From an uncultured delta proteobacterium (GTDB lineage: Bacteria; RBG-13-61-14; DRUE01), in contig CAIYYW010000326.1 in NCBI GenBank assembly GCA_903930515.1, positions 1 through 17,071 of the forward strand: a stretch of DNA of 17,071 nt, read 5' to 3'. Position 1 is the stretch's first letter; every line of letters starts with the position of its first letter. Below the pieces are notes generated by a model. That model did not search any database. It was not told the origin of the DNA and was given only the letters and a program-made list of their open reading frames with translations. Positions 54-17,007 of this stretch are shown piece by piece. A program made the translations under genes and the position numbers.

Positions 54-75
54 CTCTGCGCATCTGTGGTGAAAA
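54..75 (+). repeat. 22-nt direct repeat, copy 1 (upstream of GxxExxY gene)
   Basis: This copy reads CTCTGCGCAT then CTGTGGTGAAAA. It matches 530-551 in the same orientation with three differences, and 14318-14339 more loosely. Copies 1 and 2 bracket the GxxExxY gene and lie in AT-rich DNA unlike the rest of the window. No function is known to me. Confidence 0.7.
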
Positions 76-88
76 AAAGGGATTTTAG

Positions 89-460
89 ATGGAAGAAAAC
101 GAAATAACGGGCAAGATTATCGGGGCCGCGATTGAGGTGCATCGGCACCTTGGACCGGGGTTGATGGAGTCGGTTTATGAGGAATGCTTATCCCAGGAGC
201 TGAAACTGAATGGCCTTTCTTTTGAAAGGCAAAAGGTTCTTCCGGTGGAGTATAAGGGAGCCAAACTTGATTGCGGCTACCGGCTTGATTTGGTGGTTGA
301 GCAGAAGGTAGTCGTAGAAATAAAGGCTGTAGAAAAACTGATGCCGGTTTACACTGCGCAGGTCTTGACCTATCTTAAACTTAGCGGCTTGAAATTAGGG
401 TTATTGATAAATTTCAATGTTCCGGTTATAAGAGACGGAATTAAAAGGCTTATCTTATAG
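89..460 (+). CDS. GxxExxY protein (PD-(D/E)XK nuclease-like fold)
   Basis: This 123-residue protein belongs to the GxxExxY family, small proteins of unknown role that are widespread in environmental bacteria and related to PD-(D/E)XK nucleases. The naming motif is visible as G24-L-M-E27-S-V-Y30. A nuclease-like core follows: D67 in the stretch GYRLDLVV, E77-I-K79 and a later Gln (Q91 in TAQVLTYLK). This is the D...ExK...Q pattern of that superfamily, so the catalytic residues look intact. The ATG follows AAGGGAT at a suitable distance. The gene and its flanks are richer in A+T than the purA gene next door, and 22-nt direct repeats lie on either side, which suggests a later insertion. The family assignment is firm; the function is unknown, and nuclease activity is inferred from the motif only. 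Confidence 0.9.
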
Positions 461-529
461 TCAAGAAAAAGGAATAAATTAAAAAGATGTTGAAAAAAAA
501 GAAGAAAAATAATAAAAAAACTCTGTGTC
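461..529. other. A-rich spacer between GxxExxY gene and purA
   Basis: This stretch is almost all A and T, with several A runs on the plus strand, and holds no open reading frame of note. It contrasts sharply with the GC-rich purA gene that follows. I see no hairpin that would make a clear terminator. Confidence 0.6.
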
Positions 530-551
530 CTCTGTGTCTCTGTGGTGAAAA
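530..551 (+). repeat. 22-nt direct repeat, copy 2 (upstream of purA)
   Basis: This copy reads CTCTGTGTCT then CTGTGGTGAAAA. It has the same orientation as copy 1 and differs from it at three positions. It is itself preceded by a partial copy (CTCTGTGTC at 521-529), giving a short tandem. It ends 24 bases before the purA start codon, so any purA promoter must lie in or before it. Confidence 0.7.
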
Positions 552-14278: not shown

Positions 14279-14326
14279 GGTCGCAGGGACAGGGCGAAGC
14301 CATGCGTCGCCCTGTCCCTTTGCGAC
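14279..14326. repeat. Long near-perfect hairpin
   Basis: AGGGACAGGGCGA (14285-14297) and TCGCCCTGTCCCT (14307-14319) are exact reverse complements with a nine-base loop. The pairing continues outward through GTCGC/GCGAC after a two-base bulge. This is the strongest hairpin noticed in the window. It has no T run after it, and the 22-nt repeat copy 3 overlaps its right arm. Confidence 0.75.
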
Positions 14327-14339
14327 TTTGCGGTGAAAA
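14318..14339 (+). repeat. 22-nt repeat, copy 3
   Basis: This copy reads CTTTGCGACT then TTGCGGTGAAAA and fits a shared pattern with 54-75 and 530-551, including the fixed GGTGAAAA end. It overlaps the right arm of the long hairpin. No gene of the GxxExxY type is next to it. Confidence 0.55.
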
Positions 14340-14450: not shown

Positions 14451-14568
14451 CGAGACTCAACCTCGTTTCTACTTCATTGCTCCAGCGCCTGCGCAAAAAA
14501 AATATTTGCCCTTGAAACAACAAAAGTGGATTTGACGGGAGGGGTGTATTCAGAGCTAGCGCAGCCCC

Positions 14569-14596
14569 TGCTTCGCTCTGACTCGCTACGCAGGGC
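14569..14596 (-). repeat. 28-nt inverted repeat, left copy
   Basis: The reverse complement of this stretch is identical over 28 bases to 16916-16943. The unit itself can fold: CCCTGC pairs with GCAGGG, with GTAGC and GCGAA just inside. It lies 25 bases before the ccsA-like promoter. Confidence 0.85.
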
Positions 14597-14620
14597 AGGC
14601 AAGAGTTTCCGGCGGCACAA

Positions 14621-16903: not shown

Positions 16904-16915
16904 CACTTCTTGCTT

Positions 16916-16943
16916 GCCCTGCGTAGCGAGTCAGAGCGAAGCA
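16916..16943 (+). repeat. 28-nt inverted repeat, right copy
   Basis: This is identical over 28 bases to the reverse complement of 14569-14596. It begins 13 bases after the hemA stop, so the two copies closely bracket the ccsA-like/hemA unit in opposite orientation. Confidence 0.85.
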
Positions 16944-17007
16944 TGGGGGTGGGCGGGACACTCTTGCCTGCGTGCTGCTTCCAATGTGCGAGCGAATTCA
17001 GTCGCGA

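Follow-up and report, generated by a model that had tools for sequence, protein, structure and literature searches.

A GxxExxY gene between repeats beside purA

The stretch of DNA considered here (the window) is the complete 17,071-nucleotide (nt) contig G000:C326 of a 3.65 Mb metagenome-assembled genome (MAG; 401 contigs) from an uncultured delta proteobacterium, and three genomes from the phylum were compared. Near the start of the window a gene for a GxxExxY protein of 123 amino acids (aa), a PD-(D/E)XK nuclease, lies between copies of a short repeat upstream of purA, and the unit formed by this gene and its repeats is the subject of the analysis. Genomes, contigs and loci are denoted by G, C and L numbers, respectively. 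The features concerned are the following:

54..75, + strand: upstream repeat copy, degenerate; two units (CTCTGCG CATCTGTG) and the terminal GGTGAAAA
89..460, + strand: GxxExxY protein gene, 123 aa, PD-(D/E)XK nuclease; D67, E77-x-K79, Q91xxxY95; TIGR04256, PF13366
521..551, + strand: downstream repeat array; CTCTGTG-TC-CTCTGTG-T-CTCTGTG followed by GTGAAAA, 60 nt past the stop codon
576..1868, + strand: purA, the neighbouring host gene; purA of the same-genus genome G001 has no upstream GxxExxY gene
14318..14339, + strand: third repeat copy (CTTTGCGACTTTGCGGTGAAAA), a dispersed solo copy without an adjoining GxxExxY gene

The original prediction, made from the letters of the window, described two 22-nt copies in the same orientation. 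Indeed, the copies at 54-75 (CTCTGCGCATCTGTGGTGAAAA) and 530-551 (CTCTGTGTCTCTGTGGTGAAAA) lie on one strand, have TCTGTGGTGAAAA in common and are identical except at 3 of 22 positions, but the downstream copy really extends to 521-551 and comprises three heptamer units, of which the last two with the tail (22 nt) recur identically at G000:C5:10875-10896. Upstream, only 53 nt precede the first copy as the contig starts there. Loci L002 and L167 suggest that the copy at 54-75 may be what remains of a longer upstream array unit, namely its right half, the rest lying beyond the contig end; the arrays of the window genome, which are single or in direct tandem, speak against this. The AT-rich island that had been proposed is found in the flanks, with a GC content of 23.9% at 1-88 and 25.2% at 461-575 beside 55.6% in purA, whereas the gene itself, at 44.6%, is only moderately AT-rich. 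As had also been stated, the gene-plus-repeat unit contains no transposase.

The PD-(D/E)XK core ascribed to the protein is confirmed at several levels. The protein matches TIGR04256 with 161.2 bits (cut-off 35) and PF13366 with 155.5 bits (cut-off 22, E=8.7e-46), its active-site residues are conserved among 58 relatives (D67, K79 and Y95 without exception, E77 and Q91 in at least 90%), and its AlphaFold2 model has the PD-(D/E)XK fold with a predicted local distance difference test score (pLDDT) of 95.5. No sequence relatives of the window protein were found among solved structures. By fold, the closest match is Cas4 SSO0001 (PDB 4ic1; VIA-align Z 10.0 over 100 residues, root-mean-square deviation 4.2; Foldseek E 1.7e-3), followed by restriction enzymes and Holliday-junction resolvases, including Hjc, at Z 7-8, which is the range of common arrangements.

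Repeat arrays at GxxExxY genes across phyla

The relation between gene and repeat was evaluated in 80 GxxExxY loci taken from 84,980 species genomes and belonging to Chloroflexota, Acidobacteriota, Proteobacteria, Planctomycetota, Bacteroidota, Cyanobacteria, an archaeal bin and others. An array is defined as at least two consecutive CTYNGYG units, the typical form being three heptamers ending in GGTGAA. Arrays are present within 300 nt of the gene in 76 of the 80 loci, usually at a distance of 0-60 nt from the matched coding ends, which is far above an even spread and bears out the expected excess of the repeat near GxxExxY genes. In particular, the 50 nt next to the gene have an array density of 13.8/kb on the upstream side and 16.2/kb on the downstream side, compared to about 0.2/kb at 1-5 kb, a local enrichment of more than 50-fold that is accompanied by an orientation bias. 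Indeed, 52 loci carry a '-' array upstream and a '+' array downstream, that is, outward-facing inverted repeats. The direct orientation of the window copies is a minority form, and the notion of a cassette bounded by direct repeats finds no support in that form, both for this reason and because the repeat is a dispersed family, found singly or in direct tandem in the window genome.

The association does not depend on the motif. When the reverse complement of each left flank is compared with its own right flank, the median score is 20-21; swapped loci or random windows give 8-11. Of 77 loci, 58 score above the 99th percentile set by 1,600 control windows. The association with arrays is seen again in thirty Desulfuromonadia loci, and 20 of 29 pass the motif-free test. 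Collectively, the GxxExxY gene and its arrays recur as one unit across many phyla.

The family is a large one, with at least 580 confirmed coding stretches in a scan of species genomes, and 144 of 194 Desulfuromonadia genomes have a GxxExxY gene above cut-off, with up to 9 gene copies per genome. A phage origin finds no support among 50,697 phage records, none of which has a GxxExxY gene, and only 8 plasmid records contain one. No Rfam match to a known RNA family was obtained at the arrays.

Some loci show further peculiarities. Head-to-tail arrays with near-constant spacing occur in L217 (3245-3739, 240 nt), L219 (2946-3469, 167 nt) and L218 (2640-3084, about 144 nt), and in L217 and L218 they adjoin the GxxExxY gene. 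One open reading frame of L213 (5994-7523) ends in an array that is translated as ...HHGDTEARR...; such in-frame arrays lengthen predicted proteins and give spurious termini. L240 (G039:C3, 940-3949) contains three GxxExxY-sized segments, 94-97% identical, within 3 kb and without CTYNGYG arrays, which represent a recent local amplification.

Gene-less copies of the arrays

Outside the gene-bearing loci, the repeat was searched with the pattern CTCTGYGWCTYTGYGGTGAAAA, allowing up to 3 mismatches, and with the reversed pattern as a control. The window MAG contains 42 matches and the same-genus genome 36, compared to 0 for the control in each. Rows of CTYTGYG units ending in GGTGAAAA make up the family in the window genome, where units inside one copy tend toward an identical variant and about 40 further copies exist besides the three of the window. 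Thus, the repeat is a large dispersed family and not merely the two ends of a cassette. The same genome has two GxxExxY genes, both with arrays within about 150 nt of the gene ends. A gene with a NucS_C endonuclease domain adjoins the second one, between outward-facing arrays (L002, 1905-2885; G000:C281), and may possibly be a gene of another kind within such a unit. Four-helix-bundle genes (TIGR02436) were considered as further cargo and rejected, both copies in the window genome being without arrays. Separately, the window contains a 40-nt inverted repeat of the GCCCTGCGTAGCGAGTCAGAGCGAAGCA type (14565-14604 and 16908-16947, 95% complementary), possibly another repeat family.

Dispersed arrays are found in 28 of 30 GxxExxY genomes, in up to 414 copies, with 0-4 matches per genome for the reversed pattern. 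Arrays far from the gene pair 24 times as -/+ and 8 times as +/-, and G015 has a short -/+ element, about 70 nt long, that is repeated at unrelated sites. In DNA hairpin folding against shuffled sequences, the G015 elements reach z values of -5.8 and -6.6 and a G099 element -10.6; the single window array has no palindrome and does not fold (-0.3 kcal/mol). Tandem -/+ units are also frequent beside the gene, which may come after a degenerate unit (L167, L157, L180). Across the 194 Desulfuromonadia genomes, those with the gene hold a mean of 11.4 arrays (median 3) and those without it 2.7 (median 1), a difference with a Mann-Whitney p of 4e-4, uncorrected for phylogeny.

Matched ends and shared sites

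The two ends of a locus resemble each other more than they resemble those of other loci. When the left end of a locus is compared with 75 right ends, that of its own locus ranks first in 27 loci, the median rank being 1. In parallel, end similarity tracks protein similarity (Mantel r=0.25 for right and 0.22 for left ends, p=0.002, base composition uncorrected), and different protein clades carry different types of array unit. Indeed, loci that lack the heptamer have inverted repeats of other tandem units, namely CTCNGTTG in L156 and L172 and ATTCGTG in L177, and those of G089 and G091 are of a TTATCG type. The matching of the ends, their co-variation with the protein and the clade-specific unit types therefore suggest one co-evolving system.

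Comparison of related genomes reveals sites with and without the unit. The empty sites sought at purA are found in part: the GxxExxY gene is absent in both relatives, the same-genus one retaining a single unit, CTTTGCGGTGGAAAA, at the same place and the same-order one having neither gene nor repeat unit before purA, but this is not a clean empty site because both relatives also differ upstream. A second case is the sbcD-sbcC junction in one Desulfuromonadia genus. The two genes adjoin tightly in G154 and G172, an array-only element of 236 nt lies between them in G091 and about 1 kb, including a GxxExxY gene, in G089. A GxxExxY gene is present at this junction in five Desulfuromonadia genomes (L213, L217, L159, L160, L178), with proteins from no fewer than three separate clades, which suggests repeated occupation, fast evolution being the alternative. 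Other shared sites also recur between genomes. A functional theme of the sites, considered as sbcDC is a hairpin nuclease operon, was dropped since other recurrent sites, judged from their translated flanks, adjoin unrelated genes.

A proposed single-nuclease element and its alternatives

The observed association, orientation, co-variation of ends and protein, dispersal, and presence or absence between relatives are best accounted for if the GxxExxY gene and the surrounding arrays constitute one element, organised like the repetitive extragenic palindromic (REP) doublets known as REPINs and their REP-associated tyrosine transposases (RAYTs), but with an unrelated nuclease; a probability of roughly 60% is assigned to this reading. 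In such an element, one small nuclease gene would be enclosed by two tandem-unit arrays, mostly outward-facing inverted repeats, and the same arrays, solo or as short -/+ pairs capable of forming hairpins, would be its gene-less copies across the genome. The nuclease would recognise its own type of array, either as a duplex or in a hairpin or single-stranded form, and cleave there, while host repair or replication would copy arrays, or arrays with the gene, to new sites or onto existing arrays. The outcome would be solo arrays, tandem units next to the gene, and sites with gene-bearing as well as array-only alleles. In this scheme the nuclease would act on the arrays and drive their spread, and the co-variation of ends and protein lends indirect support to such an action of the protein on the repeat. 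It looks like a self-copying gene-plus-repeat element of dozens of bacterial groups, whose gene and arrays had previously not been linked. A bolder version, put forward tentatively and at somewhat less than even odds, sees GxxExxY as the dedicated enzyme of a new, phylum-spanning minimal mobile element, in which a lone nuclease without a transposase is tied to its arrays by a protein-array code and host repair spreads both array-only and gene-bearing copies.

Several points weigh against this single-nuclease element. PD-(D/E)XK enzymes hydrolyse DNA and do not join strands, and host factors would therefore be needed. The sites compared offer no clean case of target-site duplication or exact excision, and the G154 sequence at the site of the short element is not explained by a simple deletion. 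A candidate for precise recent transposition in G218 was discarded, as the 99.8% identical copies contain host-gene sequence and appear to reflect a segmental duplication. Moreover, 8 of 47 Desulfuromonadia genomes without a detectable gene still hold at least 5 arrays. A search around 30 array sites of the window genome gave no -/+ pair, the arrays being single or in direct tandem, and hairpin mobility is therefore not visible in this lineage. Of the proposed gene cassette that moves as a unit, the belonging together of gene and repeats is supported by the surplus of repeats around GxxExxY genes from many phyla and by the lack of the gene at purA in both relatives, whereas its movement can only be inferred because neither a clean excision site nor a target-site duplication was found.

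The most serious alternative, though an unlikely one, is that arrays spread independently and that GxxExxY is a homing-type parasite, a PD-(D/E)XK homing endonuclease colonising them by cutting and copying itself in. In its favour, the gene lies in or beside tandem -/+ units that otherwise occur without it (L157, L167, L180, G089), G091 has only arrays at a site where G089 has the gene, and arrays remain in some genomes that lack the gene. Against it, the two ends of each locus are alike and vary in step with the protein, proteins of different clades have different unit types, and arrays are less abundant where the gene is absent.

The arrays could be sites of a global regulator resembling integration host factor (IHF) or HU, with GxxExxY genes as merely frequent or autoregulated members of the regulon, and such a role has been proposed for them in Geobacter metallireducens (PMC2700814); some arrays directly precede start codons. 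This is improbable given that arrays lie at both gene ends, outward-facing and also past the stop codon, that their density falls to about 0.2/kb at 1-5 kb, where other genes lie, and that the unit type varies by locus, unlike the site of one conserved host regulator. Y1 transposases of the IS200/RAYT kind might instead move the arrays, leaving GxxExxY a bystander, as REP and REPIN families are associated with RAYTs (PMC2817692, PMC3116915) and Y1_Tnp genes occur in 16 of 17 genomes checked. However, G007 has 79 arrays and no Y1_Tnp match and G009 has 267 arrays and one marginal match, the single window array lacks a palindrome, and arrays bracket just one Y1_Tnp locus out of 30, where an IS200 copy seems to have landed in a pair, compared to 76 of 80 GxxExxY loci; this option is close to refuted. 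A chance recurrence of low-complexity CT/TG-rich DNA might be suspected from units that are short and degenerate, all the more since two-copy short repeats are common by chance, but it is refuted by the reversed-pattern controls (0 versus 42 and 0 versus 36) and by the local enrichment of more than 50-fold with its orientation bias.

If the single-nuclease element is real, a very common uncharacterised nuclease family would gain a function and a very common intergenic repeat, hitherto read as regulatory DNA, would gain an owner. It would represent a second, independently evolved instance of the REPIN/RAYT lifestyle, with an enzyme unable itself to join DNA, thus making the source of mobility a direct experimental question. 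Should the protein read its array by unit type, the natural diversity would provide ready pairs for mapping a compact nuclease-DNA specificity code.

Comparison with known systems

Free-standing PD-(D/E)XK homing endonucleases are small lone nuclease genes at their target site, with occupied and empty alleles. The GxxExxY unit shares these traits but, unlike them, carries its own arrays, which are scattered gene-less up to hundreds of times. Miniature inverted-repeat transposable elements (MITEs) and their parent insertion sequences likewise have identical inverted ends on copies with and without the gene; here, the unit has no transposase gene and no target-site duplication was seen. The resemblance to Cas4 SSO0001 (PDB 4ic1), the best fold match, concerns a protein of 202 aa compared to 123 aa, and a common fold says little on function.

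The arrays themselves have a precedent in the 'predicted global regulator binding sites' of classes 1-3 that Aklujkar (2009) described in G. metallireducens. Class 2 consists of three tandem repeats TCTCCGTS[Y], paired on opposite strands at variable distance, while classes 1 and 3 are other tandem octamer or heptamer arrays (PMC2700814). Compared by description only, class 2 corresponds to the same arrays and fits G015 and others; unlike here, the classes are read as regulator sites, and the passages devoted to them make no connection to GxxExxY (PMC2700814). The genome papers of G. bemidjiensis and P. carbinolicus list further multicopy repeats. No literature linking arrays to GxxExxY was found in a search that left out subscription papers and preprints, and priority of others is possible; nor were the repeat sequence strings found, and papers naming GxxExxY are, by title and abstract, not about repeats.

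The closest parallel is the REPIN/RAYT system (PMC3116915, PMC2817692), in which one gene also lies between two inverted repeat copies, as in 52 of the 80 loci here (the window copies being direct). Both have many gene-less copies, often as inverted doublets that form hairpins (not seen in the window's own genome), and in both diverse repeat types co-vary with the protein. The differences lie in the enzyme, here a PD-(D/E)XK nuclease (PF13366) that is the only gene in the unit and there a Y1 HUH transposase; in the repeat, here tandem heptamer or octamer units and there a GT(A/G)G head with a GC-rich palindrome; and in the possibility of several gene copies per genome (up to 9) here. Because its enzyme and its non-palindromic repeat set it apart from the defining features of that system, the element is not filed as REPIN/RAYT. 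All in all, it works like REPIN/RAYT in organisation without being a member.
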